Of a stretch of 64,000 bases of DNA, positions 45,348 to 62,796 are shown in pieces. The stretch comes from Blastopirellula sp. J2-11. Its GTDB lineage: Bacteria; Planctomycetota; Planctomycetia; Pirellulales; Pirellulaceae. The notes under the pieces are model-generated. The model was not told where the DNA came from and ran no database searches. It saw only the letters and a list, made by a program, of their open reading frames with translations. The number at the start of each line of letters is the position of its first letter. Position 1 is the stretch's first letter. Position numbers and translations under genes: made by a program. Location: positions 1,426,001-1,490,000 of the forward strand of contig NZ_CP097384.1 of the NCBI RefSeq assembly GCF_024584705.1. The letters run 5' to 3'.

Positions 45348-48300
45348 GCGAACCGGCAAAGTATCCCAAACGACTGATCGAAGTCGATCTCCCTATTGCT
45401 CGCATCTCGGCGCATGCGCGGCGTGAGAAGTCGATTCGACATGGACATATTTCGACGCTGCATATCTGGTGGGCCAGACGGCCGTTGGCGTCCTGTCGGG
45501 CAGTCATTTGTGCGTCCTTGTGGCCTGACCCAGCGGATGAACTCTGTCCGACTGCGTTTCGCGAGGCAGCTGTTGTGCAGATCAAACAGTTTGCTGGCCG
45601 TATATTTCCAAAAAAGATCACCAGTGAAGGAAAACTGCTTGCCAGCGAAAAGCACCTGTCACAAGAAAGCCGAGGGCGATGGGAAGCGATTGCAGCGGGG
45701 AGCTTAACGCTGGATGCGGATGAACCCACCGATATGCCGATGCTGCGGATGTGCCTGCTCGACTTCATTGCCGACTTTGCCAACTGGGATAACAGCGCGG
45801 TGTCCGCATATCTGGAGACGAGCCGGGCACTCACGCAGGCCGCTCACCAAGCCCTGGGAGGCGAACCGGGAACACGCCCGCTGGTGGTCGACCCGTTTGC
45901 CGGGGGCGGGGCCATTCCTCTAGAAGCCTTGCGGGTCGGTGGAGATGCGTTTGCTAGCGATCTAAATCCTGTGGCGGTACTGCTGAATAAGGTCGTTCTA
46001 GAATACATCCCCAAATACGGTAAAAAACTGGCTGATGAGATCCGCAAATGGGGCGACTGGGTTCAAGAACAGGTCCAGCAGGAACTAGCCGATGTCTATC
46101 CCAAGGACCCCGACGGTGCGACGCCAATCGCATACCTTTGGGCACGGACAATTTTGTCTGAAGGGCCTGGTGGAGGAACGCCTATTGAAGTTCCACTACT
46201 CCGATCCATGTGGCTCTGTAAAAAGCGGAATCGGAAAATCGCGTTACGCTGGCTACGAAACAAAGATGGCGCTGTTTTGACGGACAATATCACTGTTCAA
46301 ACCGCAGACGGACAGCATCGCAATGTCCTTCGACCACAACTGGAAATCTTCGTTCCAGATCGTGATACAGAAGTCGAAGCGGGAACGGTTTCTCAAGGAT
46401 CGGCCACATGTCCGGTAACGCATTTCACGACTCCTGTGCAAAGCGTTCGTGATCAGCTCAGCAAGCGTTTTGGTGGCGCGGCCGATTCGCGATTGCTAGC
46501 CATCGCTGTGATTTCCTCAGCAACATCGGGGCGACAATATCGCTTGCCAACCTCGATCGATGATCACGTCGTTTCACAAGCATACGCGAAGCTGAGTCAC
46601 CGAAAAGGCGAGCTTACACAGTCACCGAAAGAGACATTTTCGGGAACCGAACCAAGAAGAATACCTGTTCCGCAATATGGCATCCACGAGTTTAGCCACC
46701 TCTTCCACCCCCGCCAGCTTCTTGCGATGCTTGTTCTCACTGACAAGATCAAATCAATCGGAAATGAAGCCTTCAACGATGCGGAAATGGCGATCGCCGT
46801 ACGCGTGATGCTTACGCTCTCTCTGGGAAAGCATGCAGATTTGGCGAACTCATTGTGCGCGTGGGAACCGATCGCCGAATGCCCGAGACACTTGTTTGGT
46901 AAACAAGCAATCAACATGGTGTGGGACTTTGCGGAGGGCGTCACGACCGGAAAATCGAGCGGCTCCTGGAGCATTCAAATCGACCGGATGGTGCACATAC
47001 TCGAGTCGATCGGTCAAGACTGGCAGGTCGGCACTGTGCAGCAATCATCAGCCACTGAACATCCTCTCCCCAACGATATCGCAGATTGTTTCCTGACAGA
47101 CCCCCCTTACTACTACTCAGTTCCCTATTCCGATCTCTCTGATTTCTTCTATGTGTGGTTTCGCAGATCGCTCAGTGGCGATCTTCCAAAACTATTCTCA
47201 ACTGAGGTGACCCCAAAAAAGGAAGAGTGTGTTCAAAATCTCCCACACGCCGCTGTCAAGCATCGACAGAAGGATCGTGCGTTTTACGAAAAGCAAATGG
47301 AAACAGCACTTGCTGAGGGACGGCGCATTACTAAACCAGCGGGGATTGCAACCATTGTCTTTGCTCATTCGTCTACCGACGCTTGGGAGTCATTGCTCGA
47401 AGCTCTTGTGCGTGCTGGATGGCAGGTAACTGCGTCCTGGCCGATTGATACAGAAATGGCAAGTCGAATCGTCGCCCAACGACAACGAACACTTGCGTCA
47501 TCAGTCCACCTTGTTTGTCGCCCGCGTGAAAAGTCTGATGGCTCATTACGAGAAGAAACGGGTGAATGGAGGGATGTTCTTTCCGAACTCCCCAAGCGAA
47601 TCCACGAATGGATGCCTCGTCTGGCAGCCGAGGGAGTTGTTGGGGCGGATGCGATCTTCGCCTGCCTGGGACCAGCTCTCGAAATATTCAGCCGATACAG
47701 TCGGGTAGAAAAAGCGAGCGGGGAGGCAGTACCGCTGCGTGAATACTTGGAACAGGTCTGGGCGACCGTTTCGACCGAAGCGTTATCGATGATCTTTAAG
47801 GACGCCGACGCAGCCGGACTGGAACCGGATGCTCGCCTGACCGCGATGTGGCTATGGACTCTAGGTGGCATGGAGACCAACGGTAGCAACTCGCAGGGAA
47901 GCAGCGACAGTGATGAGAAAGTGGTGGCCAGCAAAGGCTACACCCTTGAATACGACACCGCCCGCAAAATCGCCCAGGGGCTAGGAATTCATCTGGAACA
48001 AAGCGAATCGATCGTCGAAGTCAAAGGCGACAAGGCCCGCCTGCTCCCGGCCAGCGAACGAACCCGCCACTTGTTCGGCAAAGACGAACCGGGACCGACT
48101 ACCTCCCGTGGTCGTAAGAAGAAAAATGAAACGCAACTCGATCTTTTCAAAATGCTCGACGCACTTGAAGCCGAGGCGGAAGTGAATGTTGCTGGCGAAC
48201 TCAAGCCCCAGGCTGGTGATACCGTCCTCGACCGTGTCCATCAATCCATGATCCTATTCGCGTCCGGTCGAGGTGAGGCCCTCCGCCGTTTTCTCGTCGA

Positions 48301-48430
48301 CGACGGAGCTGGCACCGACGCTCGCTTCTGGAAACTCGCACAATCACTGTCCGCGCTCTACCTGAAAGAAACCGACGAAAAACGGTGGGTGGATGGAGTG
48401 CTGGCGAGAAAGAAAGGGTTGGGACTGTGA
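45344..48430 (+). CDS. DUF1156 DNA amino-methyltransferase (anti-phage associated)
   Basis: A 1028-residue protein. The N-terminus 'RLIEVDLPIARISAHARREKSIR', 'HISTLHIWWARRPLASCRA' is DUF1156. A SAM-binding 'VVDPFAGGGAIPLEALRVG' near residue 184 and the catalytic 'CFLTDPPYYYSVPYSDLSDF' near 586 (DPPY) form an N4-cytosine/N6-adenine methylase with permuted or split motifs, as usual for this family. 'IATIVFAHSSTDAWESLLEAL' follows in the later methylase half. DUF1156 methylases occur with DUF499 ATPases in defence islands, as here. It would mark self DNA. The preceding and following genes overlap it by four bases each. Confidence 0.9.
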   Translation: MSEPAKYPKRLIEVDLPIARISAHARREKSIRHGHISTLHIWWARRPLASCRAVICASLWPDPADELCPTAFREAAVVQIKQFAGRIFPKKITSEGKLLASEKHLSQESRGRWEAIAAGSLTLDADEPTDMPMLRMCLLDFIADFANWDNSAVSAYLETSRALTQAAHQALGGEPGTRPLVVDPFAGGGAIPLEALRVGGDAFASDLNPVAVLLNKVVLEYIPKYGKKLADEIRKWGDWVQEQVQQELADVYPKDPDGATPIAYLWARTILSEGPGGGTPIEVPLLRSMWLCKKRNRKIALRWLRNKDGAVLTDNITVQTADGQHRNVLRPQLEIFVPDRDTEVEAGTVSQGSATCPVTHFTTPVQSVRDQLSKRFGGAADSRLLAIAVISSATSGRQYRLPTSIDDHVVSQAYAKLSHRKGELTQSPKETFSGTEPRRIPVPQYGIHEFSHLFHPRQLLAMLVLTDKIKSIGNEAFNDAEMAIAVRVMLTLSLGKHADLANSLCAWEPIAECPRHLFGKQAINMVWDFAEGVTTGKSSGSWSIQIDRMVHILESIGQDWQVGTVQQSSATEHPLPNDIADCFLTDPPYYYSVPYSDLSDFFYVWFRRSLSGDLPKLFSTEVTPKKEECVQNLPHAAVKHRQKDRAFYEKQMETALAEGRRITKPAGIATIVFAHSSTDAWESLLEALVRAGWQVTASWPIDTEMASRIVAQRQRTLASSVHLVCRPREKSDGSLREETGEWRDVLSELPKRIHEWMPRLAAEGVVGADAIFACLGPALEIFSRYSRVEKASGEAVPLREYLEQVWATVSTEALSMIFKDADAAGLEPDARLTAMWLWTLGGMETNGSNSQGSSDSDEKVVASKGYTLEYDTARKIAQGLGIHLEQSESIVEVKGDKARLLPASERTRHLFGKDEPGPTTSRGRKKKNETQLDLFKMLDALEAEAEVNVAGELKPQAGDTVLDRVHQSMILFASGRGEALRRFLVDDGAGTDARFWKLAQSLSALYLKETDEKRWVDGVLARKKGLGL

Positions 48431-49221: not shown

Positions 49222-49252
49222 AATGGTTCCCGTTGTGACGGGGGAGAAGATA

Positions 49253-52207
49253 ATGTCAAAGATGAAACCCTGGTACCAAGTGATCACTCCGCGGGAAGAC
49301 TTGCGGGAAAATCGTCCGATGGACGCCTCAGAGTTCGCCGTCCATCTCGATCATATTCGCCAACATCGGGACAACGTGTCGCCGGACTATCTGGACCCGG
49401 CTCGTTTTTTTGAGCGGACATTCCTGACCGCCAGCTTGCTGGATCTCTCTTCGCAGGTAGTGCGTCGGCTCTCCAGCATCAAGGTCGAAACTTCCGCCGT
49501 GTTCAACATGGCGACGCAGTTTGGCGGTGGTAAAACCCATTCGCTGACCACGCTCTGGCATCTTGCGACCTCAGGCGACAATGCAAAGTCCTGGAAGGGG
49601 GTCGACAAGATCCTTGCTAAGGCGCAGACATCGCAGGTGCCACAGGCCCGTGTCGCTGTCTTCGTAGGGACAGAGTTTGACGCGATTCAAGGGCGCGGCG
49701 GCGAAGGCGAACCGTTGCGCAAGACACCCTGGGGAGAAATTGCCTGGCAATTGGCCGGCAAACAGGGATTTGACTTGGTCGCCGAACACGACGCCAAAGG
49801 GATAGCGCCGGGCGGCGATGTTCTGCAAAAACTGCTGGGAACGGAGCCCGCGCTGATTCTGATCGACGAGTTGATGAATTACATCAGCCGAGCACGCAAA
49901 ATGGAGATGCGAGATCAGTTTTTCGTCTTCCTGCAAAGTCTTTGCGAAGAAGCCCGGGCGCACAACAACGTTGTCGTCTGCGTTTCGATTCCTGCCTCCG
50001 AAGACCTGGAGATGTCGCCAGAGGATGTGCGAGATTTTCAATCCCTGAAGAAGCTACTGGATCGGCTCGGCAAAGCGATTATGATGTCCGCCGATGTAGA
50101 GATCGCCGAGATCATTCGTCGTCGACTGTTCGAGTGGGACTTGTTCGACGTGGAGGCCGAGAAGGTCGCCGCAGAATACGCCGAATGGGCGGTGGATCAC
50201 TCCCAGGAACTGAGCGGCATTGATCCTGAGACCGCTCGCGAAACATTTCGCGCGTGCTATCCGTTTCATCCGTCGGTTCTCTCGGTATTTGAAAGAAAAT
50301 GGCAAAGCCTGCCTCGGTTTCAACGCACGCGCGGCATTCTGCGGCTACTTGCTTTGTGGGTAGCTCACGCCTACCAGGATGAACACCGTAAAGCGATGCG
50401 CGAACCATTGATCACACTCGGTTCGGCTCCGCTGGAAGATCCGATTTTCCGCTCAGCCATGTTCGAGCAGCTAGGCTCGAACGAGCTAGAGGTTCCGTTG
50501 ACGACGGATATCGCCGGCAAGAAAGACGCTCACGCGGTGCGTCTGGACCGCGAGTCGTCGGAAGCAATTAAGAAGGCGAACCTGCACCGCAAAGTTGCGT
50601 CCGCCATCTTCTTTGAGTCCAATGGCGGCATGAGCCAGGCGAACGCGGTGGCGACACTACCAGAGATCCGCGCGGCGGTCGGCAACCCCGACCTCAACAT
50701 GGTCGATATCGATAATGTTCTGGAAGGATTGGTCAGCAACTGTTACTACCTCAATTGGGACCGAAACCGCTATCGGTTTGGATTGTCTCCCAACCTGAAT
50801 CAGATCCTCGTCACCCGCCGGGGTGCAGTGCAGCCCAAGGAAATTCATGAGCGGATCAAACAGGAAACGCAGGAGCTATTCAACAAAGGAACGAAGGCTG
50901 TCGACCGTCGCTTCTTCCCAGAACGCAGCAATGATGTGCCGAACCGCGCGGTGCTGACCCTCGCGGTTATGAGCCTGGAATATAAAGCAGGCGACAAATC
51001 GACGGAAAAGCTGCTCGAAACCATCGTGCGCGAGTGCGGAACCTCGGGGCGAACCTACAAGTCCGCCCTGATATTCAGCGTGCCCGATGTAGCCGATGCG
51101 ATCCACGACGCCACTCGCGACGTACTGGCCTGGGAAGCCATCGAAGATGACACCGACACTCGCAAACAGTTGGACGAGGCGCAGGAACGGTTGCTGAAGC
51201 GCAACATGGGGCGGGCCAAGAGCGACCTGAAAGAAGCGATTTGGCGCTCGTACCGGTATCTGTACCTACTTGGTAAGGATAACAAGTTACGGCAGATCGA
51301 CCTCGGGCAAATCACCTCCAGCATGGCCGGCTGCCTCGTCGAGCTGTACGTCAACGAGTTGAGCCGCACCGATGAGATCACGTCCGGTGTTGGCGCAAAC
51401 AAGCTACTCAAGTATTGGCCCCCGGCGCTGACCGAATGGTCGACTAAGGGCGTACGCGATGCGTTCTTTTCGTCACCGCAACTTCCGCGACTATTGGATG
51501 CCGATACTATCAAGCGGACGATTGCGGACGGTGTAAGCCACGGAACGCTGGGCTACGCCATGAAAGAAAGCAGTGGGCAATTCAAGCTGCTTCACTTCAA
51601 CGAAAGCCTGGCCGAGGCGGATGTGGAGATCGCCGATGATGTGTTCATCCTCAAAGCAGAGGAAGCCCAGAAGTTACTCGAACCGCCGCGGCTCGATCGA
51701 CTCGTAATCCGACCATCGGAAGTGACCCTCAAGTCGGGCGAGCAAGCCTCATTTGCGTGCAGCGGCATTGACCAATACGGCCAGCCGTTCGACATCACCT
51801 CGGCGATCTGGTCTTCCACTTGCGGTGAGATTAGTAACGATGGACTTTACAAAGCAGCTAGCGACAGCACAGGCGGCCTATTCACTGTCAAAGCCCAATC
51901 GGCGGGACTGGAAGCAATCGCTGAAATCCGCGTTGTAATACCGCAACAAACTAGTGGCGGTGAGACTGGCGGGGGCAATGACACAGCGACGCAACAGAAA
52001 GCGATCCGCTGGGAAGGAACCGTACCGCCGCAGAAATGGATGAACTTTTACACAAAGGTGCTCAGTCGTTTCGCATCCAGCGAGGGATTGAAGTTGAAGG
52101 TATCGTTTGAGGTGCCGACCGAAGGCGAGCAAGGACAAGCCAAGGCGGATGAAGCGAGATCGGGATTGAAGGAGTTAGGGTTAGATGACAATCTACGGCT
52201 GGGATAA
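49253..52207 (+). CDS. DUF499 AAA ATPase with an embedded bacterial Ig-like domain
   Basis: A 984-residue protein from the ATG at 49253, preferred over 49223 because GGGGGAGAAG precedes it. 'ATQFGGGKTHSLTTLWHLA' (Walker A, near residue 88) and 'ALILIDELMNYI' (Walker B, near 203) with 'VVCVSIPASE' define the DUF499 ATPase, a regular partner of DUF1156 methylases in predicted anti-phage operons. A winged-helix-like middle 'AIFFESNGGMSQANAVATLPEI' follows. Around residues 815-893 there is a beta-rich segment 'RPSEVTLKSGEQASFACSG', 'IWSSTCGEISNDGLYKA', the pattern of a BIG2-type immunoglobulin-like domain, unexpected inside a cytoplasmic ATPase. Confidence 0.85.
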   Translation: MSKMKPWYQVITPREDLRENRPMDASEFAVHLDHIRQHRDNVSPDYLDPARFFERTFLTASLLDLSSQVVRRLSSIKVETSAVFNMATQFGGGKTHSLTTLWHLATSGDNAKSWKGVDKILAKAQTSQVPQARVAVFVGTEFDAIQGRGGEGEPLRKTPWGEIAWQLAGKQGFDLVAEHDAKGIAPGGDVLQKLLGTEPALILIDELMNYISRARKMEMRDQFFVFLQSLCEEARAHNNVVVCVSIPASEDLEMSPEDVRDFQSLKKLLDRLGKAIMMSADVEIAEIIRRRLFEWDLFDVEAEKVAAEYAEWAVDHSQELSGIDPETARETFRACYPFHPSVLSVFERKWQSLPRFQRTRGILRLLALWVAHAYQDEHRKAMREPLITLGSAPLEDPIFRSAMFEQLGSNELEVPLTTDIAGKKDAHAVRLDRESSEAIKKANLHRKVASAIFFESNGGMSQANAVATLPEIRAAVGNPDLNMVDIDNVLEGLVSNCYYLNWDRNRYRFGLSPNLNQILVTRRGAVQPKEIHERIKQETQELFNKGTKAVDRRFFPERSNDVPNRAVLTLAVMSLEYKAGDKSTEKLLETIVRECGTSGRTYKSALIFSVPDVADAIHDATRDVLAWEAIEDDTDTRKQLDEAQERLLKRNMGRAKSDLKEAIWRSYRYLYLLGKDNKLRQIDLGQITSSMAGCLVELYVNELSRTDEITSGVGANKLLKYWPPALTEWSTKGVRDAFFSSPQLPRLLDADTIKRTIADGVSHGTLGYAMKESSGQFKLLHFNESLAEADVEIADDVFILKAEEAQKLLEPPRLDRLVIRPSEVTLKSGEQASFACSGIDQYGQPFDITSAIWSSTCGEISNDGLYKAASDSTGGLFTVKAQSAGLEAIAEIRVVIPQQTSGGETGGGNDTATQQKAIRWEGTVPPQKWMNFYTKVLSRFASSEGLKLKVSFEVPTEGEQGQAKADEARSGLKELGLDDNLRLG

Positions 52208-52220
52208 TCGCTAAGAACTG

Positions 52221-53714
52221 GTGGCCAAACCAGCAAAAACCAACGGGGTTGGCCGCTTTGAGAAACTCATACATGACTTGTCGCGCGAATCGCCGGAATT
52301 CTCCTTGATTCACGTCAGACGAGATTTGGAAGACGAAGCCGTGACTATATTTTGGACGAACAAATCTGTGCAACCTTTCGCCAACGATGGCGATCCAGTC
52401 AATGCACTGATTAACCGCGCGAATGATGTCGTGTTGGATGCGGTCGAAAGCGGCTGGTCAGGCCCGCCCTTCGACACTTTCGAGTTGGCGAATCTTCTGG
52501 GAATCGCCGTTATCCCTTGCGAATCGATTCGCGATGCTAGGCTAATCGCCTTGCCAAATGATCGCTACCGAATCGAATACAGCCCCCTTCAACCTCAGGC
52601 ACGAATCCGATTTTCGATTGCCCATGAGATCGCACACACGTTCTTCCCTGATTGTCGAGAGAGCGTCCGCAACCGTGCGGCGAAACACGAGACGGAAGGA
52701 GACGATTGGCAGCTAGAGATGCTATGCAACGTTGTCGCATCAGAGTTGCTGATGCCGATGGGAAGTTTTCCGGAAGTCGGAAACGCCGTGTTTTCGATCG
52801 ACAGCCTACTTGACCTACGCGCAAGATTCCAGGTTTCCACCGAAGCGATTCTTCTGCGATTCCTAAAGCTATCTAGAATGCCATGCGCAGTGTTCGCAGC
52901 GTCAGGCCAAAAGGGCAGTTCAGCGACATTGAGAATTGACTACATCAGAACCGCTAATGGCTGGAATCTGCCGTTCGGAAGCAGTTGGAGACTGCCATCT
53001 AACAGCGTAGCGAATGAGTGCGCATCCATTGGATTTACATGTAAAGGCCATGAAGTTTGGGACAACGGCGTCGGAGAAATGCGAGTCGAATGTGTTGCGA
53101 TTCCGTCGTACCCTGGTTCGGACCGCCCGAGAGTCGTCGGCCTGTTGGCACCTGTTGATAGTACGGCGGTGAACCTTCCCACCATCCAATACTTAAATGG
53201 TGATGCGACGTCGCCTCGCGGGGACGGAAATCGAATAATTGCTCACGTTGTGAATGACGCCACGCCTAGATGGGGTGGTGGATTTGCCCGCGTGGTCGGC
53301 CAGAAATGGAAGGACGCTCAGCGAGATTTCATTTCTTGGAGCGAACAAGGGAAACGCCCGCTTAGACTTGGCAACCACCGACAATTTCAGCTCGACGAAG
53401 CACTCTGGGTGTTTCATATGGTAGCACAACACGGCTACCGGCAATTATCTCGGCCTGGGATTCGATACCACCATCTTGAATCTTGTCTAGAATCGCTGCG
53501 TGATCTGGCAAACGACCTCACTGCATCAGTACACATGCCACGTATCGGTTGCGGTCAAGCAGGTGGAAACTGGCCGATCGTTGCAGAGTTGATCGATGAC
53601 ATTCTTTGCCGCAATGGGATTGATGTGACGGTTTACACACTTCCTTCTGAACGAGCTCAATGGGAGCAACCTGACCGCCAACGTCCCCTCTTTGGATTGG
53701 CTGACTCAGATTGA
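52221..53714 (+). CDS. ImmA/IrrE-type metallopeptidase fused to a macrodomain
   Basis: A 497-residue protein with a GTG start 14 bp after the DUF499 stop. The first part carries 'RFSIAHEIAHTFFPDCRES' near residue 134 (HEXXH) and the later 'LEMLCNVVASELLMP' third-ligand helix, the ImmA/IrrE gluzincin pattern. From about residue 325 a macrodomain follows: 'NRIIAHVVNDATPRWGGGFARVV', 'PRIGCGQAGGNWPIVAELI', 'IDVTVYTLP', of the ALC1/TARG1/DarG-like group that removes or binds ADP-ribose. The fusion would couple a signal-responsive protease or sensor to ADP-ribose reversal, and a likely ADP-ribosyltransferase is encoded two genes on. It could therefore act as the antitoxin of that gene (inference). 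Confidence 0.8.
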   Translation: MAKPAKTNGVGRFEKLIHDLSRESPEFSLIHVRRDLEDEAVTIFWTNKSVQPFANDGDPVNALINRANDVVLDAVESGWSGPPFDTFELANLLGIAVIPCESIRDARLIALPNDRYRIEYSPLQPQARIRFSIAHEIAHTFFPDCRESVRNRAAKHETEGDDWQLEMLCNVVASELLMPMGSFPEVGNAVFSIDSLLDLRARFQVSTEAILLRFLKLSRMPCAVFAASGQKGSSATLRIDYIRTANGWNLPFGSSWRLPSNSVANECASIGFTCKGHEVWDNGVGEMRVECVAIPSYPGSDRPRVVGLLAPVDSTAVNLPTIQYLNGDATSPRGDGNRIIAHVVNDATPRWGGGFARVVGQKWKDAQRDFISWSEQGKRPLRLGNHRQFQLDEALWVFHMVAQHGYRQLSRPGIRYHHLESCLESLRDLANDLTASVHMPRIGCGQAGGNWPIVAELIDDILCRNGIDVTVYTLPSERAQWEQPDRQRPLFGLADSD

Positions 53715-53730
53715 ACACACGGGGAGTTGC

Positions 53731-55344
53731 ATGGAAAAGTTAATAGTCCTACTCTCCGGGGCCGTCGCCTCCGGTAAGAGTACACTCGCATCGCTTCTTG
53801 AGCGAGAATTCAACTGCCAAGTGATCAAGACTTGGCAGCTGTTACAGGCTATTGACCCCAAAGTAACTCCTGACAGAGGTGCACTTCAAACGCTGGGTGA
53901 AAAACTCGACAAAAAAACGGGCGGCGAATGGGTTATTGAAGAACTCGACAAGGTAATCAGGTCTTTGCCTTCCTACCGCGTATTCGTTGTCGACGCAGTA
54001 CGTATCGATGGTCAAATCGATGCAATCCGCCGTGGCTATGGACGTAACGTCAAACACATTCACTTAGAAGCTCCACTAGAGACACTCGCATCACGATACG
54101 AAGCCCGAAACAGGACATCGATAAAGGAGTTTGAGTCACATGCCGAGGTGCTGAAAGACAAGACTGAACAAGCAGTCCCGGAATTAGCGAAAACGGCCGA
54201 CATCGTAATTGATACCCACCGCAACACGCCAGACGATGTGCTTGTCCGCTCTGGCTGTCATCTTGGTCTATACGGCCGCGGGTACGATCGTCTCGTTGAC
54301 GTTCTAATTGGGGGCCAGTATGGAAGCGAAGGAAAGGGACAGATTGCCGCGTATCTTGCCCCTGAATACGACGTGCTGATCCGTGTTGGCGGTCCCAATG
54401 CCGGTCACAGCGTCTATGAGCATCCGACACCCGATGTTTTTCATTCACTGCCTTCAGGAACCAATCGATCCGCAAACTCCAAGATTGTGATCGGTGCTGG
54501 TGCTGTGGTGAATGTTGACACCCTCTGGAAAGAAATCATCACATGCGAGTTGTCGCCAGATCGCCTTACGATAGATCCTCAAGTGCTGCTGATTAGTGGG
54601 AAGGACATTTCGCGCGAATCAGCTAATGTGAAGAGTATGGGCTCCACTGGCCAGGGAGTTGGCGCGGCAACCGCTCGTCGAATCCTCGATCGGGGCGTGC
54701 GGTCAGTTCCTATGGCGCGAGATGTCGAGAAGTTAAGGCCTTATGTTCGGACCGCTCATGAAGTGATTGAAAACGCCTGCCGAAATGGCAAAAGGGTGCT
54801 GCTTGAGGGCACACAAGGAACTGGATTGAGTCTCTACCATGGCTCCTATCCACATGTAACATCGCGTGACACGACCGTCGCAGGTTGTCTTGCTGAGGCT
54901 GGCATCTCTCCCAGTCGAGTGCGAAAGGTATTGATGGTTTGCCGGACTTACCCAATTCGCGTCCAGAATCCAGAGGCTGAAGGAAAACACTCTGGGCCAA
55001 TGTCACAGGAAATCTCTCTAGATGAAATCGCTCAACGGTCAGGCATTGCGCTTGCAGAGCTACAGAAAACGGAGACGACTACAACAACAAGGCGGCGGAG
55101 ACGTATTTCTGAATTTGACTGGCGGCTTCTCAAAAGAGCCTCCGAACTTAACGCACCGACGGACATCGCGATGACGTTTGTTGACTATCTCGGAGTAGAG
55201 AACCAGAATGCACGGCGTTTTGAGCAACTGACAGATGTTACCCTTCGATTTATTCAAGAAGTCGAGCGAGTCGCGGGAGCTCCGGTTTCGCTAATCGCGA
55301 CTCGCTTTCATCACCGGAGCATTATCGACCGTCGTGGATGGTAG
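53731..55344 (+). CDS. P-loop kinase fused to an adenylosuccinate synthetase-like domain with Asp-to-Ser change
   Basis: A 537-residue protein from the ATG at 53731, preceded by GGGGAG. Residues 1-185 are a nucleoside/nucleotide-kinase-like P-loop domain: 'VLLSGAVASGKSTLASLLE' and the later 'RYEARNRT' lid. From about residue 190 the PurA fold starts: 'VDVLIGGQYGSEGKGQIAA' replaces the usual GxQWGDEGKG, so the catalytic Asp is Ser; 'IRVGGPNAGHSVYEHPT', 'HSLPSGT', 'GAGAVVN', 'TGQGVGAATARR' and 'EGTQGTGLSLYHGSYPHVTS' are kept. The C-terminal substrate loop is replaced by 'TTTTTRRRRRISEFDW'. Not a housekeeping PurA. A GTP-dependent ligase on a modified purine or a sensor is inferred. Confidence 0.82.
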   Translation: MEKLIVLLSGAVASGKSTLASLLEREFNCQVIKTWQLLQAIDPKVTPDRGALQTLGEKLDKKTGGEWVIEELDKVIRSLPSYRVFVVDAVRIDGQIDAIRRGYGRNVKHIHLEAPLETLASRYEARNRTSIKEFESHAEVLKDKTEQAVPELAKTADIVIDTHRNTPDDVLVRSGCHLGLYGRGYDRLVDVLIGGQYGSEGKGQIAAYLAPEYDVLIRVGGPNAGHSVYEHPTPDVFHSLPSGTNRSANSKIVIGAGAVVNVDTLWKEIITCELSPDRLTIDPQVLLISGKDISRESANVKSMGSTGQGVGAATARRILDRGVRSVPMARDVEKLRPYVRTAHEVIENACRNGKRVLLEGTQGTGLSLYHGSYPHVTSRDTTVAGCLAEAGISPSRVRKVLMVCRTYPIRVQNPEAEGKHSGPMSQEISLDEIAQRSGIALAELQKTETTTTTRRRRRISEFDWRLLKRASELNAPTDIAMTFVDYLGVENQNARRFEQLTDVTLRFIQEVERVAGAPVSLIATRFHHRSIIDRRGW

Positions 55345-55355
55345 GTTGAAAAAGC

Positions 55356-55985
55356 ATGGCATTTACAGATATTCATTTCACTCGTACGCGTCCGTATCTC
55401 TATCACCTGACAGACCGCGATAATCTGAATCACATTCGCGCGACGCGGGCAATGTTGAGTGCCGCGGTTCTCCTGCAACAAGCGGGAGATAACGCATACC
55501 TTCGGGCTAAGCGTCAATCCTCGATTCAAGTGAAGATTGGCCAACGTGTTATTAGTATTCGGGACCAGCAACCGCTCCACGCGGGCAACATTACCTTTCA
55601 AGGTGGATATGGATTTGCTGATGTCATTGAGATGCTCAACAAGCGAGTTTTCTTCTGGCCAGGGACGTCGCATGGACCGATTTCTTACGGCGAACGGCAT
55701 TTTCTCCGCTACGAGAATGATCAGCCTGTGATTTTGCGGGTGGCGACCGCTGATTTATTTCAAACCAACAGCGACGTTTCGCCGCTTTATTGCCGATACA
55801 ACTCGGGCTCTCCTCGTTGCACTGGCGGAAAAGGTAGCCCCCGCGGCCCGGTAACATTTGCATTGGCTGAAGATGCAGACTTTACCGCGAGTAACGTGGT
55901 GGAGGTGACCTTCCTGAATCAAGTGACATTGCCGGCACGAGTCGAGGCGAGCGATTCAATTAATGGCCCATGGCGTAAGGTTTAG
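55356..55985 (+). CDS. DUF7002-like putative ADP-ribosyltransferase
   Basis: A 209-residue protein 11 bp after the PurA-like gene. 'RPYLYHLTDRDNLNHIRATRAMLSAAVLLQQ' (residues 11-41) is the typical opening of ART-fold toxins and of DUF7002/DarT-like proteins, where the HLT segment holds the NAD. 'YGFADVIEMLNKRVFFWPG' and 'SYGERHFLRYEND' follow the second half. Its neighbour two genes upstream encodes a macrodomain, the classical eraser of ADP-ribosylation. I therefore read it as a candidate transferase toxin; the catalytic Glu cannot be assigned safely by eye. A 209-bp gap with a short dyad (GTTGA/TCAAC at 56153-56169) separates it from the next gene. Confidence 0.62.
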   Translation: MAFTDIHFTRTRPYLYHLTDRDNLNHIRATRAMLSAAVLLQQAGDNAYLRAKRQSSIQVKIGQRVISIRDQQPLHAGNITFQGGYGFADVIEMLNKRVFFWPGTSHGPISYGERHFLRYENDQPVILRVATADLFQTNSDVSPLYCRYNSGSPRCTGGKGSPRGPVTFALAEDADFTASNVVEVTFLNQVTLPARVEASDSINGPWRKV

Positions 55986-56194
55986 AGGCTTCCAGTCACG
56001 ATAATGCTGCAATATTAGATGCTGATTGCGGGAACGCCGGAAAAAGTGTTGGGGGAATTGGATTTACCGCATCGAAGCTATCTCCATTGATAGCCAAGCG
56101 GATGCCAGCATTCGCTGCACTGCGATCGCAAGGAGACTAGATCGAATAGAGTGTTGATGTTGCGTCAACGCTTTGAGTTGCAAAGGAAACTACG

Positions 56195-57646
56195 GTGTTA
56201 CTTACTGCGCTTCCAATCTCCTCACCCTACGATCCCGTGGAAGATCCGCCGGGCAGTATCGACCCGCTTGGAACCGTGGCGATGGCAGAGCAGTTGGCCG
56301 ATGTTCTGCTGCCTGGCCTAACTGCCCGAATGTGGCGAATACGTCATCTGACCTTCACGGCGTTGGCGGCCCTGCTTGGAGAACGCGCAGCGAGCGCGGA
56401 AGGAAGTAGTGAGGAAATACGTCTAGAGGCTCGACTGGGGTTAGAGCGATTATTCGTTTCCGCCGTCGCATGGAAGGATGAGAAAAAAGAGGACAACTGG
56501 GGAAATGCGGCACGACGCTTGCCAGGCATAGGACTTGCCCGCCGCGCAATCAGATCAGGACACCAGCCATTGGGCAAGCAAAACTTTCTGAAAGGGCAGG
56601 CAATCAACGGCCCGTTTGGCGTCGTCCAACGCCTTGCTCGTAATCTTGACATTATTGATGACGATAACCAACTCAGCCGCAATGGCGAAGCGTTGCTCCT
56701 TGCGTGGTCGGCGGAACGAGGGCTCTGGGGGATTTTCGACGAGAGTAACTCCGATCGTCGGGGAGCCAAATGGCTGCGACGACTTACTCGCGATGTCGTT
56801 AATCATGTGAAACAGGAAAAATGGCCAAATAAGACGTGGTGGGGCTGGTCTGATCTACCTGTTCACCTGCGTCCTGACGAGCCTGGCAAACAGGAAAGTG
56901 AGGTTTTGTTTCAACTTCTCGCTGGCGACGCGAATGTAGTCAGGAAGCGATGTATTAACCTACTGCTCAGTCCAGAAATTCTAAGCAGCTACAGAGTTGT
57001 CGCCGAAACAGGCTCCCGAGGAACCTTAGACCGTATGATACTCGCCCAACAAATGGACGCTCGCGTTCTAGAAGGGGGAGACGAAGTTGACAAGCTAATT
57101 CAATATACAGTCGCCCTAATAGAAGCCTTTGAGCAAGTTAGTGGATACGCGGATTCGGCATTTCGTGGCTTAATGTGGGCGCTCACGCGTCGCGGCGGAC
57201 GCGGCACGCCTAGCCAGCTATTGGGCGATTCTGTACTGGCGCTACACCTAAAGGCAACCCGTCAGAACCTAAGTGGGGTGGCGGAACGATTTCAAACGCT
57301 CATGACGAAAATCCTCGATTACCCGCAGGTAGTCGACGCTGTAAGCCAAGAACGGCTTGATCAATTGATGCACGATGCCTTGGATGGCCTTGCAAGCGAA
57401 CAGATGCTTGTCGATGCGGTCATGGATCGGCACAAACGTGTGCAGCGTCAAAAGCGAAAAGGCGTCTGGATCGAACAGGATCATCCTAACTGGATCTTGA
57501 TGCCAGGTTTTGGAGATAGCTCTGACGCCCCTCCAAATCACAACGGAGCCTACCTTCATCCGTTCCGAGTTTCCAACGCATACAGTTTTTTAAGCGATCT
57601 GGGCAAAGTGGAAGCAATTGAGGTGCCAAATGGCGAGGAAGAGTAA
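56195..57646 (+). CDS. Hypothetical protein, first gene of the Tdp1-like/helicase cassette
   Basis: A 483-residue protein starting at the GTG at 56195, with AAGGAAAC upstream. No known domain is visible. It is helical with an aromatic-rich middle ('WPNKTWWGWSDLPVHLRPDEPG'), followed by 'QESEVLFQLLAGDANVVRKRCINLLLS' and a long helical region, ending in 'GAYLHPFRVSNAYSFLSDLG'. It overlaps the phospholipase-D-like gene by 17 bases and always-together expression is expected. In similar defence cassettes the first gene encodes a large scaffold or sensor; that role is only inferred. Confidence 0.6.
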   Translation: MLLTALPISSPYDPVEDPPGSIDPLGTVAMAEQLADVLLPGLTARMWRIRHLTFTALAALLGERAASAEGSSEEIRLEARLGLERLFVSAVAWKDEKKEDNWGNAARRLPGIGLARRAIRSGHQPLGKQNFLKGQAINGPFGVVQRLARNLDIIDDDNQLSRNGEALLLAWSAERGLWGIFDESNSDRRGAKWLRRLTRDVVNHVKQEKWPNKTWWGWSDLPVHLRPDEPGKQESEVLFQLLAGDANVVRKRCINLLLSPEILSSYRVVAETGSRGTLDRMILAQQMDARVLEGGDEVDKLIQYTVALIEAFEQVSGYADSAFRGLMWALTRRGGRGTPSQLLGDSVLALHLKATRQNLSGVAERFQTLMTKILDYPQVVDAVSQERLDQLMHDALDGLASEQMLVDAVMDRHKRVQRQKRKGVWIEQDHPNWILMPGFGDSSDAPPNHNGAYLHPFRVSNAYSFLSDLGKVEAIEVPNGEEE

Positions 57647-59843
57647 GGTGGCTAGTCAACCGCCGATGTCTCATTTCTGGACGCCGCCGGATTTTGCTGG
57701 CGGTTTGGGCGAACCTTGGGCATGTCTTGCTACCACCTTTGAATTCAACGCTGAGTTTTTTGAGACAGAATTGCTACCTCGATTCCTGGGGCTCCGATTC
57801 GATCAGACAGAGAACGAACCTTCTTTTCTCGTCGAGCGGGAGGAGGCATTGTCACTGGCGAGTGTCACCGTATTGGTCGATCATAGTCGTTTTGACTCGT
57901 CACAAACGACACTACGTTGGGACCAGGTTCAGATTCAGATTCCGGGAGGAGTCCAGCATGCAAAAATTACTGTGCTCGCATGGGAAAACCTCGTTCGCAT
58001 TGTGATCGGATCCGCAAACTTGAATCGAGTCGCATATCGCCGAAATCGCGAGATGTTTGCAGCGCTAGACTTCTGGAACGGCGACGACTCAACTCCAATT
58101 CGACTTCTAAGTGAGACGTTGGATTTGCTAAACCTGATGCTTGGCTGGTCCCGTTCTGCGACAGCATCTGTCGAACGCACGCAAGACACGCTTGAGCGCC
58201 TGCGTCGTCTTGTCCGCAGTTGGCGCGAGGCTCCGGCCGACTTCGCGTTCCACGAGCGGCCAAAGGCAACCTTAGTTGTTACCCATCCACGAGTTGGAAA
58301 TCGTCAAGCTCGCTCGACGCTACGCGAAATGCTTCAAATTTGGGGCAATCGCCGAGCGACGTCTGTCACAGTTGTTTCGCCTTTTGTGGCACCGGCCCCC
58401 GATCCAAGAGTTGGCGACACAGTCGTAAACATGCTCGCCCAGCTATCTTTGACCCGGGAATGCGAAGGCTGGCTTGTCGCTCCCGAGCTACCGAAATCCC
58501 CTGATGACCAACACACGAGATTGCCGTTCCCTGAAGTATTTAGGGACAGTTGGAAGAGTGTGTTCGGACCGCGCGGCGGCGGCCGCGTGTTGTCATTGCC
58601 ACTGTGCGTCGAGGGGACCGAAGACCGTAATCGAGCGTCCCATAGTAAGTGCGTTGTGCTGGAGAATGGCAACGATGACGTGGCGACGATGATGATTGGT
58701 TCTAGTAACTTCACCCCGCGCGGAATGGGGGTCGGAGTTTACAACTTTGAGGCGAATGTAGTATTTGAAGATGCGGGGGCGATTAAACGTAACGGCTTGC
58801 GTTTGATAGAACGGCTAGATTTGCCACGCGATTGGGAAGAGGGCTTGGATGTCGACGATGCGGTCTGGTTAACTCCGACAGATTTGCCGGAAGATGAGCC
58901 CGATTCACGGCCGACGCTTCCCGCATTTTTCGCTTGGGCGACGTTTTCTCAACTTACAGGGGAGATCAAACTGCGGCTTGATCGTTCTCGGACCGAACCG
59001 GAAGGATGGACTATAAATTTACCCGGAAACACCGAGGATGCGCCAACCTTGTTCACGAAACAATTGGAGCCTGGTTTATCCCTGATCGATACGCTTTCCC
59101 ACGTCCTTCCAGATACGATGCGTGCCGCCAACATTGTGGCACTACTTATAGATTGGCACGACGAAAATGGCGCAATGCAACAGGCAAAGCTAGGAGTGAC
59201 GATTGAATGTGCGGATCATCTTTTGCCGCCGGAGCAGTTTCAAAAACTGACCGCTGACGCGATCATCGAATGTCTGATTAGCGGAAAAACTCCGCCTCAA
59301 TGGTTCGATCAGACCAGCAGAAAGGGAAAGTCGACAGGCAAGAATAACGCGGCCATCGAGTCGCTTCACGCCGTCGACACAACGTCGTTTCTACTTTATC
59401 GAGTGCGTCGATTCGGGCGCGCGCTTACCGGCATGTCAATGCGAATTACGCGAACCTTGGCACATCCCGAAGCAATTCGCTACCGACTGGTGAAGGACCC
59501 ATTTGGACCAATCTCCTTGGCGCGATCGGTCGTTACCACCAACCCAAGCGAGGACGTCGACTGGTGCGCGAAACTTGATGACGAACATCGATTGTTTTTA
59601 CTTACCGAAATCCTGCTGATGGTGTTGCACTTGCAATCTCGTGTCGCTCAAAAGACGCGAGGCACGGAGCGCAAGGCGATTAAGTGCGTGTTTGGGGAAA
59701 CGATTGAAGATTTACGATCTTTGGCCGGTAATCTCGCCGAATCGAACTCAATTCCAACGAATCTACGTGACTATTTCGACCGCGTTGACGCCCTCGTCCA
59801 GCCGGTCTTAGCTAGTGCAAAGGAATCGCCGGATGCCAATTGA
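57630..59843 (+). CDS. Tdp1-like phospholipase-D-superfamily protein
   Basis: A 737-residue protein from the ATG at 57630. Two HxK motifs: 'VQHAKITVLAWENLVRIVIGS' followed by 'ANLNRVAYRRNRE' near residue 110, and 'SHSKCVVLENGNDDVATMMIG' region followed by 'SSNFTPRGMGVG' near 338. The Asp of a classical HKD motif is missing in both, and the order H-x-K...(G/T)S-x-N matches tyrosyl-DNA phosphodiesterase 1, as does the 'YNFEANVVFE' strand after motif 2. The C-terminal third is unassigned. The fold acts on phosphodiester or protein-DNA links by a His-phospho intermediate. It overlaps the helicase gene by 11 bases. Confidence 0.75.
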   Translation: MARKSKVASQPPMSHFWTPPDFAGGLGEPWACLATTFEFNAEFFETELLPRFLGLRFDQTENEPSFLVEREEALSLASVTVLVDHSRFDSSQTTLRWDQVQIQIPGGVQHAKITVLAWENLVRIVIGSANLNRVAYRRNREMFAALDFWNGDDSTPIRLLSETLDLLNLMLGWSRSATASVERTQDTLERLRRLVRSWREAPADFAFHERPKATLVVTHPRVGNRQARSTLREMLQIWGNRRATSVTVVSPFVAPAPDPRVGDTVVNMLAQLSLTRECEGWLVAPELPKSPDDQHTRLPFPEVFRDSWKSVFGPRGGGRVLSLPLCVEGTEDRNRASHSKCVVLENGNDDVATMMIGSSNFTPRGMGVGVYNFEANVVFEDAGAIKRNGLRLIERLDLPRDWEEGLDVDDAVWLTPTDLPEDEPDSRPTLPAFFAWATFSQLTGEIKLRLDRSRTEPEGWTINLPGNTEDAPTLFTKQLEPGLSLIDTLSHVLPDTMRAANIVALLIDWHDENGAMQQAKLGVTIECADHLLPPEQFQKLTADAIIECLISGKTPPQWFDQTSRKGKSTGKNNAAIESLHAVDTTSFLLYRVRRFGRALTGMSMRITRTLAHPEAIRYRLVKDPFGPISLARSVVTTNPSEDVDWCAKLDDEHRLFLLTEILLMVLHLQSRVAQKTRGTERKAIKCVFGETIEDLRSLAGNLAESNSIPTNLRDYFDRVDALVQPVLASAKESPDAN

Positions 59844-62796
59844 TTGGACTTTTGCTGAATCGTCCCTGCGGCTTGGCGGCGCTGACAAACAGCGAATACA
59901 GCCTGAAGATGCGGCTCGGCAGTTCAAGACGGCTGCCGCGATACTCCAGGAATTGGTCGATCGGCCAGGCGTGCTGCTCAGCGATGAAGTTGGTATGGGC
60001 AAGACGTATGTCGCTCTCGCAGTGGCTGCCTCAGTGATTATCGCAACTAAAGGCTTGCAAGGTCCAGTCGTGATAATGGTGCCAAGCCGCCTTCGCCGCA
60101 AATGGCAACGCGAGTGGGAGCAATTCAGACGCCATTGTTCGTTTGATGGTTCCTTGGATTGGATTTGCGATACATACGCGCATTCTCCAACCGACTTCTT
60201 TAAGCTGCTCGATGATGACGAGCAACATCGAAACCAGCTTGTATTCACAACGACGGGTTGCTTCTCAAGGGGCTTCAACGACGCCTGGATCAAGTTGGTC
60301 ATGATCCGTCTAGCACGGCAAAAGACTAAATTGACGGCGCAGCAGAAACAGGCCATCTACCGCTGGGCTCCGCAGCTCATTCGGCAAAAATCGAAGCGGA
60401 ATCTGACCGAGGACGTGCTGGAAAAGCTGATTAATGCGGATGTCACGAAATGGAAACCAATCTTGGTTCGTGAATCACTTCTTAGCGATAATGAGGATTC
60501 CCCCGTTCCCGCAATGCTTTTTGCCATCAGGGATAAAATTGACTGGAGCGGCTTGGTCAAAGTGCTTCGGGAATCCCTTCCGAGACGCACGTCGGCAAAT
60601 ATCGACCAGCGAATGCGGGAAGTCCGCCGTGAGTTTAATGTCGCTTGCCAAGGGATTTACAAGCAATGGCTTCGCATCTCTAAATGGTATTCCCCTTTGT
60701 TGATTCTGGACGAGGCTCACCACGCCAAGAATGACCACACACAGCTCGCTGGCCTATTTCGCCAGTCTTCGGCCGACGACGTAGCGCTGTTGCGAGGAAA
60801 GTTTCAGCGAATGCTCTTCCTTACAGCCACGCCGTTTCAACTGGGACATCAAGAGCTGATCCGTGTTATACGCAGCTTTGACGCCGTACGCTGGTCAAGT
60901 CGTCGTGCTCCTGTGAAGACTCGCGAGGAGGTGCAAGCTGAGATACAGTCCCTCGAGGCGTCACTCGATGCGAATCGGTTGGCGGGCCGGCGGCTCGATC
61001 GACTGTGGGGAACGATTGGAACGGATATGCTCGGCAATTATGATGTCGACCAATGGTGGGGCCGTGTCAAGGTAGACCCCAAAGATGCTTGGGAGTGTCG
61101 ACTCATTGAGTGCGTCAACGACTGTCTGGCAACTCGAAATTGTGCACAGGCAATTCTTCGCCCGTGGGTCATTCGGCACAATCGTCCGCGGGAGCTGCCG
61201 TCTGTAGAAAACAAGCCGGCGTGGTTTCGCCGTATAGGAGTATACGGAGCCGCAGTCACCACCGACTCCGTTAGTGTGGATAGCGGTGAAATTGGCTTGC
61301 CGGTGGCAAAAGAGGCGGCATTGCCTTTTCTCTTGACATCCCGCGCCCAAGGGGAGTTAGCACAAACTACCGGCGCGAGAGCTTTTTTTGCTGAAGGGCT
61401 GTCATCATCCTACGAAGCGTTTCACCACACGCGTTCCGCCAGAGGCGAGGCCCGCGACATGGATGACAATGGAGTCGCTGTGCAGAGCTCGGATGACGCA
61501 TTTGAAAACGTCAGAACGATCGTGCCAACGAGTTGGTATGAACAGCAGGTCGCGGAAATCATTCCGTCGCGGGATGCGGCTCGTCAAGATCGACTTCGCC
61601 ATCCTAAGATTTCAGCGACCGTCCGTCGCGCCGTCGAATTGTGGGAAGGTGGCGAAAAAGTCCTTGTCTTTTGTTTTTACCGCGAAACCTGTCGCGCCTT
61701 ATACGAGCAAATCCGAGAAGAAATCGATGATCGCACTCTTCAGATTGCTGGTGAAAAACTTGGGGGAAAATACTTCAATGATCGTGTGAGGACTCAAGAT
61801 TTCTTGAGCCGAATTGCTCGCCGATGCTCAGAGGAGGGAAGGCCGTTCTATGAGGAAGTTCGCCGCATCCTTTCTCAACCTTTTAGGCAGAGCAAGTATC
61901 GCGTGTTTACTGAAGATCAACGGAGCAAATTGATCGAAGTTCTTGCGGCATACTTTCGTGCCCCTTCCTTCTTGGCACGGTACCTGCCATTAGATGACTC
62001 TGCCGTTCAACGCGCCTGGGAACTTAGTGAGGGGCGACGTGAAGTGTTGGAGCCTGGAATTCTAGCGCTGCGCCGAGGCATCGAAGAACATACCGATCGA
62101 TCAAATCAGACGTACCTGAGCCGCGTCGAACAGTTTCTGGATTTTGCCATCGAATTGGCGGAGCGAGCGAGGTACGACAGTAATTCGATTTCCCTGAATG
62201 ATCAAGACGAACCCAATGATCCACTTCGTGAATGCCTTGATTCGGTGTCAGTCTATTCGCGCCCCCGTCGACCAGACAGAGTCGATTCCGAGGAGGACGA
62301 TCCCGATGATGAGGATGATGGGAGCTACCGCGTCGTTCCGCTAGTACGAATCGTTCATGGCGACACGCCATTGGAAACGCGGGAACGGTTGGCATTGGCA
62401 TTCAATAGTCCACTATTTCCCGAGGTTCTTGTTAGCAGCGGCGTCATGGGCGAGGGAATCGATCTTCATCGGTTTTGCCGACATGTGATTCATCACGATG
62501 GATACTGGAATCCCAGCACTTTGGAGCAGCAAACCGGGCGTCTTGATCGCATACGCTGTAAAGCGGAGGTCTGCCGAATGCCGATCCGAGTCTATCAGCC
62601 ATTTATCGCCGGTGGTGCTGACGAGAAGATGTTTCGCGTCGTCCGTGATAGGGAACGCTGGTTCCAAATCGTCATGGGGCAAAAGTTTGAATTCGATGAG
62701 GGGGCAAGTGAGGAGATCGCCGCCCGTGTGCCACTTCCCGATGCACTGGCGCAAGATCTAACTTTTGATTTGGCGCGTTGGTATCAATGTGAATAA
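59833..62796 (+). CDS. SNF2-type helicase, partner of the Tdp1-like protein
   Basis: A 987-residue helicase from the ATG at 59833. Walker A 'LLSDEVGMGKTYVALAVAA' near residue 53, 'VMVPSRLRRKWQREW' (Ia), DEAH box 'PLLILDEAHHAKND' near 291, 'MLFLTATPFQLGHQELIR', then 'VSSGVMGEGIDLHRFCRHVI' and 'STLEQQTGRLDRIR' near 898 are intact SNF2/SF2 motifs. A 250-residue insert and an acidic linker 'DSEEDDPDDEDDGSY' lie between the lobes. It ends the co-directional run that started at 38352. It should remodel or unwind DNA for the upstream Tdp1-like protein; a defence role comes from the neighbourhood. Confidence 0.85.
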   Translation: MPIDWTFAESSLRLGGADKQRIQPEDAARQFKTAAAILQELVDRPGVLLSDEVGMGKTYVALAVAASVIIATKGLQGPVVIMVPSRLRRKWQREWEQFRRHCSFDGSLDWICDTYAHSPTDFFKLLDDDEQHRNQLVFTTTGCFSRGFNDAWIKLVMIRLARQKTKLTAQQKQAIYRWAPQLIRQKSKRNLTEDVLEKLINADVTKWKPILVRESLLSDNEDSPVPAMLFAIRDKIDWSGLVKVLRESLPRRTSANIDQRMREVRREFNVACQGIYKQWLRISKWYSPLLILDEAHHAKNDHTQLAGLFRQSSADDVALLRGKFQRMLFLTATPFQLGHQELIRVIRSFDAVRWSSRRAPVKTREEVQAEIQSLEASLDANRLAGRRLDRLWGTIGTDMLGNYDVDQWWGRVKVDPKDAWECRLIECVNDCLATRNCAQAILRPWVIRHNRPRELPSVENKPAWFRRIGVYGAAVTTDSVSVDSGEIGLPVAKEAALPFLLTSRAQGELAQTTGARAFFAEGLSSSYEAFHHTRSARGEARDMDDNGVAVQSSDDAFENVRTIVPTSWYEQQVAEIIPSRDAARQDRLRHPKISATVRRAVELWEGGEKVLVFCFYRETCRALYEQIREEIDDRTLQIAGEKLGGKYFNDRVRTQDFLSRIARRCSEEGRPFYEEVRRILSQPFRQSKYRVFTEDQRSKLIEVLAAYFRAPSFLARYLPLDDSAVQRAWELSEGRREVLEPGILALRRGIEEHTDRSNQTYLSRVEQFLDFAIELAERARYDSNSISLNDQDEPNDPLRECLDSVSVYSRPRRPDRVDSEEDDPDDEDDGSYRVVPLVRIVHGDTPLETRERLALAFNSPLFPEVLVSSGVMGEGIDLHRFCRHVIHHDGYWNPSTLEQQTGRLDRIRCKAEVCRMPIRVYQPFIAGGADEKMFRVVRDRERWFQIVMGQKFEFDEGASEEIAARVPLPDALAQDLTFDLARWYQCE

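Follow-up and report, generated by a model that had tools for sequence, protein, structure and literature searches.

We analyzed 64,000 nucleotides of DNA from Blastopirellula sp. J2-11 (contig NZ_CP097384.1, positions 1,426,001 to 1,490,000 of the forward strand; this whole stretch is called the window) and found a gene that fuses a P-loop nucleoside monophosphate (NMP) kinase-like domain to an adenylosuccinate synthetase domain in which Ser replaces the catalytic Asp of PurA. We named this family of fusions KPA. KPA groups with PurZ in a phylogenetic tree and is encoded near an ADP-ribosyltransferase-like protein (ART) at all 88 loci of our main set and, usually, a metalloprotease–macro protein (MAC). 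We give about an even chance to the reading that KPA is a cell-encoded PurZ-type enzyme that acts on dGMP in an anti-phage or anti-mobile-element module with the DarT-like ART. The individual folds are known, whereas their combination is described in none of the libraries and papers searched; it would appear to be a new kind of system, with a function predicted from sequence. The central features of the window are the following:

52221..53714, plus strand: MAC, an M78 (ImmA/IrrE, CapP-like) metalloprotease with an HExxH motif and a macro-like domain, ending 16 nt before the KPA ATG
53731..55344, plus strand: KPA, with a P-loop NMP-kinase-like domain (residues ∼3 to 175) and a Ser-type adenylosuccinate-synthetase domain (∼189 to 535), assigned by profile, tree and model
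54325..54327, plus strand: codon of Ser199 (ATG numbering) at the PurA catalytic Asp position, computed from the ATG start
55356..55985, plus strand: ART, a DUF7002 protein (PF22531, 5e-25) with a probable, distantly DarT-like ADP-ribosyltransferase fold, starting 11 nt past the KPA stop

KPA Is a Kinase–Synthetase Fusion with Ser at the Catalytic Asp Position

The KPA reading frame is open from an ATG at 53731 or a TTG at 53692 to 55344. The ATG version has 537 residues, and residues 194 to 203 read GGQYGSEGKG. In Escherichia coli PurA, the catalytic Asp13 is the general base. An earlier note on this DNA had described a kinase–synthetase fusion with a PurZ-like Asp-to-Ser replacement, and this description was borne out: profiles matched both domains, and Ser199 aligned with the PurA Asp and with Ser23 of the S-2L PurZ. 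From its profile matches, the PurA fold of the C-terminal domain is certain (Pfam adenylosuccinate synthetase, 1.9e-54; PHROG PurZ, 6.8e-68). It matched the NCBIfam archaeal PurA model at 1.5e-83, under the model cut-off, and the PurA model TIGR00184 with 203.9 bits, short of the cut-off of 395.55. The N-terminal domain matched AAA_18 (5.5e-8) and AAA_33 (3.4e-7) in Pfam and the PHROG phage deoxynucleoside monophosphate kinase (7.6e-7). An AlphaFold model of KPA (predicted local distance difference test, pLDDT, 87.5) matched Pyrococcus PurA with a template modeling (TM) score to the target of 0.91, phiVC8 PurZ (6fm1) with 0.85 and S-2L PurZ with 0.82, and its N-terminal part matched adenylate-kinase-like folds. 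The short archaeal PurA from Pyrococcus (5K7X) is the best match in both sequence and fold, but it keeps the Asp and falls outside the Ser clade described below.

To survey the family, we assembled a main set of 88 KPA loci, consisting of the window, 8 plasmid loci and 79 genome loci. The plasmid loci came from a tblastn search with 92 records, of which 8 span 80% or more of the fusion, with identities of 43 to 46%; they are from rhizobia, agrobacteria and Methylobacterium. The genome loci were taken from the best 80 of 415 genome stretches encoding a relative, that is, from the most similar part, and are labelled Planctomycetes, Verrucomicrobia, Acidobacteria, Chloroflexi, Proteobacteria, Actinomycetota, Bacteroidota, archaea and others. 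A genome-contig scan with the single KPA protein confirmed no relative, whereas an alignment of the plasmid fusions, used as the query, did find relatives. Because GSEGKG was part of one of the two scan patterns, the locus set is biased toward Ser. Ser stands at the catalytic-Asp column in 87 of 87 KPA rows with a residue there (88 rows, one gap), and it is also present in three more intact fusions from Pseudomonadota (L257, L258 and L259), which were found by a whole-genome profile search that did not require Ser. As the Ser is family-wide, we rejected the idea that the Asp was lost by chance or only in the window protein. Samples of Acidobacteriota (247 genomes) and Actinomycetota (246 genomes) searched at 1e-60 held no further fusion, only unfused forms. 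KPA relatives are sporadic, being found in 3 of 392 genomes of the phylum at E 1e-60, its own genome included, with one other fused (the genome of L026). One archaeal metagenome-assembled contig (L038, Candidatus Gagatemarchaeum) carries two KPA copies on opposite strands. An "NMPK" profile was dropped, as the second L038 copy had entered it and it also matched the PurA part.

All 12 of the KPA genomes that we tested also encode a separate, normal PurA, so a housekeeping PurA role for KPA was rejected. The loss of the general-base Asp could also mean that KPA is a degenerate PurA serving as a non-catalytic scaffold or sensor. We consider this highly improbable: its remaining catalytic loops vary little or not at all across deep divergence, and Ser is the residue that characterised PurZ carries at the catalytic-Asp site (PMC12884076, PMC8342488). 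In one survey, all 147 phage PurZ proteins have Ser at the position of the Asp, and four archaeal PurZ sequences have Ser or Gly (PMC12884076). For the sensing of purine nucleotides, which the earlier note had offered as an option, we found no direct evidence, and KPA keeps its other catalytic loops.

KPA Groups with PurZ and Retains Guanine-Pocket Residues

PurZ, the enzyme of Z genomes, is described from phages and from a small number of archaeal sequences (PMC12884076). In a quick IQ-TREE phylogeny of 85 rows with SH-aLRT support, which has long branches for two rows and leaves 25 of its 81 inner branches open, KPA, phage PurZ, PurZ0 and unfused viral and cellular forms make up a Ser-type group of 73 rows with a support of 100. 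Within it KPA is a single clade (34 rows, support 99), and its nearest kin are unfused Ser-type proteins, both cellular and viral, at forks with weaker support (83 and 86). The Asp-type PurA, the Pyrococcus PurA and the PurA of a deazapurine cluster all lie outside, and the first row out, L227, has Asp. The tree thus places KPA inside the PurZ clade, so that the likeness goes beyond one residue. Matches to pieces of the Z-phage DNA polymerase, as expected of Z-phages, were found in 27 of the 71 viral stretches with an unfused relative (L118 to L189 without L146).

We then mapped the dGMP pocket described for S-2L PurZ (PMC8342488) onto 86 KPA rows, comprising 80 of the 88 loci and six others; the eight loci left out have no Gln in the GxQ motif (seven GGEYGSEGKG-like, one truncated). 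Ser23, Asn49, Ala50, Thr132, Gln190, Arg240 and Val241 are present in 86 of 86 rows. The PurZ-like Thr273 is found in 58 of 86 rows, where PurA has Gly (8 of 8), and Phe306 in 84 of 86, where PurZ has Phe (3 of 3), PurZ0 has Met (4 of 5) and PurA has Lys (7 of 8). KPA shares with phage PurZ and PurZ0 the clade, the Ser for Asp and the guanine-pocket residues, and differs from them in being cell-encoded, fused to a kinase and encoded beside ART. These likenesses support a purine other than IMP as the probable substrate, as had been proposed. The proposal that the C-terminal substrate loop is rewritten stood in part. The aspartate loop of the window protein is indeed unusual (TTTTTRRRRR), yet at the position of the PurA Gly it has the Thr typical of PurZ. 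An insertion after PIRV, with nine residues in both the window protein and S-2L PurZ, was rejected as a PurZ marker because it is not diagnostic: it has three residues in phiVC8 PurZ and in five of five PurZ0 rows, and ranges from three to nine in KPA.

Some unfused Ser-type genes have a separate kinase gene beside them (L261, L262) or a deoxynucleoside kinase gene nearby (L260, L263). In L260, a stop codon separates a kinase part from a synthetase part in the same frame. On the Sinorhizobium medicae plasmid pMl5 (L007), the neighbors of an unfused Ser-type PurZ-like gene encode an HD YfbR-like protein, a dCTP-deaminase-like protein extended at its C terminus and a ThiF-like protein, a set that may be another module. 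In Rhizobium leguminosarum (L008:7363-15709), a PurA and a PurB gene lie in a 7-deazapurine cluster with QueC/QueE/FolE/6-carboxytetrahydropterin-synthase genes and a nitrile hydratase subunit gene. A 7-deazapurine role was rejected, since the L008 PurA is of the Asp type and falls outside the Ser clade.

ART Is the Constant Partner of KPA at the 88 Loci

The window ART passed the PF22531 gathering score of 27 with 88.7 bits. In Foldseek searches with its model (pLDDT 93), ranks 1 to 7 were all DarT or DarTG-complex chains (probabilities 0.72 to 0.99), led by a Mycobacterium tuberculosis DarTG chain (probability 0.99, E 1.4e-3) and including E. coli DarT1 (0.93) and Thermus DarT (0.90). Every E value lies above 0.001, with TM scores of 0.34 to 0.43, so the kinship with DarT is distant. 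The ART family profile reached DarT1 in the PDB at E 0.11 only. The PADLOC DarT model was matched at E 0.017, and by this sequence model ART is not a DarT. Residues H17, R53, R69, D70, Y119 and E183 do not vary among the 79 ART proteins compared. We found no paper on DUF7002 in open-access PubMed Central, and neither the whole of KPA nor ART convincingly matched any PADLOC model.

Neighbors were grouped by clustering, followed by correction with a six-frame profile search. Nine loci at first scored as lacking ART; the six-frame search found it in all nine, one cut by the contig end, and the apparent absence was rejected as an artefact of calling open reading frames (ORFs), some of them antisense (cluster c25). 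ART thus lies within 3 kb of KPA at 88 of 88 loci, downstream on the same strand at 86 and adjacent downstream (within 150 bp) at 83. DUF7002 occurs in just 8 of 392 genomes of the phylum at E 0.001, its own included, with 6 above the cut-off; because the family is this rare, the coupling is not due to chance. No ART was found beside unfused relatives in 76 stretches (71 viral and 5 cellular, including one Asp-type and one truncated). The macro and ART-like neighbors described earlier are real, and ART is a conserved partner.

A constant pair of this kind might be a toxin and its antidote, with ART as the toxin and KPA, alone or together with MAC, neutralizing it by binding or by processing an ADP-ribosylated guanine nucleotide. 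The identity matrices of KPA and ART correlate with r = 0.52 over 79 loci, a value reached by none of 500 permutations, although shared descent is not removed by this procedure, and KPA stands alone on some viral contigs, as an antitoxin may. However, KPA correlates more strongly with MAC (r = 0.70, 69 loci), and DUF7002 genes without KPA have no recognised antitoxin in the annotated stretches. We regard the antidote role as improbable.

MAC Is Frequent and Replaceable

A full MAC is encoded at 66 of the 88 loci, directly upstream of KPA at 65, with a partial MAC at 4 and none at 18. The window MAC matched Pfam M78 at 7.2e-10, Macro at 0.0046 (under the cut-off) and PADLOC capP at 3.6e-22; 19.3 bits over 63 residues against the DarG model NF048014 fell short of its cut-off of 250. 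In 23 MAC proteins scanned, M78 matched 23 and Macro 10 at E 0.01. The HExxH residues are kept in 69 M78-type neighbors, a few of them without the macro part (H in 69, E in 68, H in 69). Most KPA loci resemble DarTG in having an ART, with a fold that is probably but distantly DarT-like, and a macro-domain protein in one operon. They differ from it in that the constant partner of ART is KPA rather than the macro protein, and in that the MAC macro domain has WGGGFA in place of the GKG motif of DarG. With CapP and PprI-IrrE, MAC shares the M78 domain with HExxH, but here the domain is fused to a macro domain. No CapH-like repressor turned up, and no specific search for one was made. PprI has been reported to be activated by single-stranded DNA (PMC10904395). 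In Sorangium cellulosum (L035), an EAD1-trypsin gene occupies the usual MAC site directly upstream of KPA-ART.

The combination of a synthetase and a kinase in one chain, the steadiness of ART and the replaceability of MAC (by EAD1-trypsin in L035 and by an HD gene and a 455-aa gene at the eight plasmid loci) would also suit a signaling role. Here, phage breakdown of host DNA would raise dGMP, which KPA would convert to a phosphorylated modified nucleotide that activates ART or the protease. Kongming, in which dITP is the activating nucleotide, is a model for such an alarm signal. KPA resembles Kongming and the anti-phage dCTP deaminases in pairing a P-loop kinase-like part with a nucleotide-converting enzyme and in a role, putative for KPA, in nucleotide-based immunity; its chemistry is different, and it has no deaminase. 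No ligand-binding domain was recognised in ART, and the presence of KPA without ART in viral contigs better fits a metabolic enzyme. We consider the alarm-nucleotide role rather unlikely.

Accessory Genes at Some Loci Point to Purine Deoxynucleotides

MazG/PRA-PH genes lie within 6 kb of KPA at 10 of 88 loci, all labelled Actinomycetota, and 4 of these 10 also encode a PurB-like lyase (Pfam Lyase_1, 6.2e-39; adenylosuccinate lyase structures, to 2.5e-87). A deoxynucleoside kinase is encoded at four other loci of the 88 (5.1e-33). An HD protein (YfbR-like, under the Pfam cut-off) and a 455-aa protein are encoded at 8 of 88 loci, namely the eight plasmid loci, where MAC is absent. Together, 18 of the 88 loci have a MazG, HD or PurB gene, and none has both MazG and HD. 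These accessory genes suggest a link to purine deoxynucleotides, though at a minority of loci. As for the co-occurrence with DatZ, MazZ or DarT raised earlier, it exists in kind, as HD genes, MazG genes and a probable DarT-like fold at some loci, but no orthologue of the three was shown. The full Z-phage cluster (PurZ, MazZ, DatZ and DpoZ) was found at no locus, the polymerase not having been searched for in cellular loci, and a phiVC8 DatZ query had no match in 80 viral loci. The rhizobial HD protein was therefore not linked to DatZ; the two have just a broad Pfam family in common.

Depletion of nucleotides is the mode of action of anti-phage dGTPases and dCTP deaminases, and KPA could likewise drain dGMP or dGTP, with MazG where present, the product being irrelevant. 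The kinase domain bears a weak likeness to anti-phage dCTP deaminases in their P-loop part (NCBIfam, 0.015; PADLOC, 6.4e-5), and the MazG genes at 10 of the loci would fit. Depletion leaves ART and the PurB-like lyases unexplained, and at one Asp and one nucleoside triphosphate per dGMP it would be a costly drain. We judge it quite improbable.

Eight viral contigs carry a fused KPA, and five of them (L110, L111, L114, L116 and L117/L146) have no ART. The 15 proteins of L117/L146 include large and small terminase subunits, a DNA polymerase, helicases and a nucleoside deoxyribosyltransferase. The other four, with 40 proteins pooled, encode two DNA polymerases, two nucleoside 2-deoxyribosyltransferases, two MazG-like proteins and one deoxynucleoside monophosphate kinase. 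Viral KPA contigs share with PurZ and PurZ0 phages the deoxyribosyltransferase and MazG genes, as cellular loci in some cases share MazG or HD genes. The deoxyribosyltransferase DmtZ has been assigned to PurZ0 phages (PMC12884076) and MazG-type enzymes to PurZ phages (PMC8342488), and the L110 and L116 contigs are possibly from Z-genome phages with a kinase-fused PurZ. By eye, L110:2144-2926 and L116:2677-3378 encode deoxyribosyltransferase–MazG-like fusions, the latter directly after KPA. Circularity of the viral contig 3300038379_000522 is not claimed, since it has no exact end overlap.

The 455-aa family (L004:13101-14459, the other plasmid loci, L258 and L259) has no Pfam match. It occurs together with the HD gene at 10 of 10 loci and by eye resembles a PEP-synthase/PPDK N-terminal domain. 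Another family, c4 (237 to 349 aa), lies near KPA-ART at 9 of 88 loci, labelled archaea and Chloroflexi (L037, L041, L042, L047, L051, L053, L054, L061 and L088), and also near unfused PurZ-like genes (L228, L263).

Proposed Pathway

If KPA is a PurZ-type enzyme, its C-terminal domain would probably form N6-succino-2-amino-dAMP by joining aspartate with dGMP or with a closely related guanine deoxynucleotide, a step suggested by the clade, the pocket and the neighbors. PurB, from the operon or the housekeeping enzyme, would then convert this to 2-amino-dAMP (dZMP), and the N-terminal NMP kinase would phosphorylate the substrate or the product. ART would be the effector, and MAC, usually present, could be a regulator, a switch or a reversal enzyme. 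The modified purine deoxynucleotide and NAD-dependent ADP-ribosylation would act jointly, with replication poisoned or marked. The toxicity of the S-2L Z-genes in E. coli (PMC8342488) fits what an effector pathway could show. How the nucleotide might relate to ART is a guess by analogy: 2-aminoadenine has the N2/N3 edge of guanine, the edge reported to be read by DarT1 (PMC11543638).

Several observations weigh against this pathway. KPA reached only 201.8 bits (1.4e-59) against the NCBIfam PurZ model NF038379, whose cut-off is 300. At the base-donor site, 86 of 86 KPA rows keep the PurA-type Asp, as PurZ0 does and unlike phage PurZ, which has Asn or Gln; because of this Asp, GTP may be the KPA donor. 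The phosphate-binding Arg146 column has Arg in just 11 of 86 rows, either through an alignment slip or a real loss, with an Arg kept close to it in 80 of 88. The KPA-nearest unfused viral relatives (L118, L119, L124, L145 and L155) gave no match to the Z-phage polymerase. MazG, PurB, HD or deoxynucleoside kinase genes lie within 6 kb of KPA at just 22 of 88 loci, and the window has no match to any of these within that distance. The coupling to ART is also incomplete. Besides the five viral contigs, L257 has no ART, one of the three further fusions (L258 and L259 have ART, the HD gene and the 455-aa gene). Conversely, KPA was not seen in the fetched stretch in 4 of the 6 DUF7002 phylum genomes above the cut-off, and DUF7002 occurs without KPA in 2 of 10 plasmid records.

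Should KPA be a cell-encoded PurZ, cells would be turning PurZ chemistry against phages, Z-DNA would gain an evolutionary context, and a function would be suggested for DUF7002. A bolder version, which we think distinctly unlikely, is a Z-base immune system in bacteria and archaea. On infection, KPA would make 2-aminoadenine deoxynucleotides from dGMP, ART would ADP-ribosylate the shared 2-amino edge and so block phage DNA or the nucleotide pool, and MAC would sense or remove the mark. If so, Z-phages took PurZ from such a system or lent it to one, and Z-DNA would belong to an old arms race. A search of open-access PubMed Central, preprints lying outside it, found no paper describing the MAC-KPA-ART module.

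The Module Lies in a Defense-Like Setting

In the window, MAC-KPA-ART is inserted in a diverged, tightly spaced Hma-like operon (45344-62796; methylase, ATPase, helicase and PLD genes), between HmaC and the downstream genes. The flanking features are as follows:

45344..48430, plus strand: HmaB-like DNA methylase (DUF1156; PADLOC HmaB, 2.1e-123)
49223..52207, plus strand: HmaC-like ATPase (DUF499; PADLOC HmaC, 1.1e-118), 13 nt upstream of MAC
57618..62796, plus strand: PLD-domain protein and SNF2/Helicase_C protein, from library scans

A 483-aa ORF between ART and the PLD gene (56195-57646) had no match in Pfam, NCBIfam or PADLOC and no homologue in the first plasmid loci compared. Further upstream are defense-like genes for an SNF2 helicase with a NO VEIN C terminus (38585-42025), an AAA_15/OLD-like ATPase (41956-43500) and an Abi_C protein (44205-45347).

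The placement of the gene in a defense island, as the earlier note had it, is supported beyond the window. Ten recurrent neighbor clusters, scored against PADLOC with no control regions, gave seven strong or clear matches, one weak match and two without any. The seven are a type I restriction-modification methylase, specificity and restriction subunit, GajA and GajB of Gabija, and two E1-like proteins. The annotated plasmid loci also carry Abi, SIR2 and UvrD genes.
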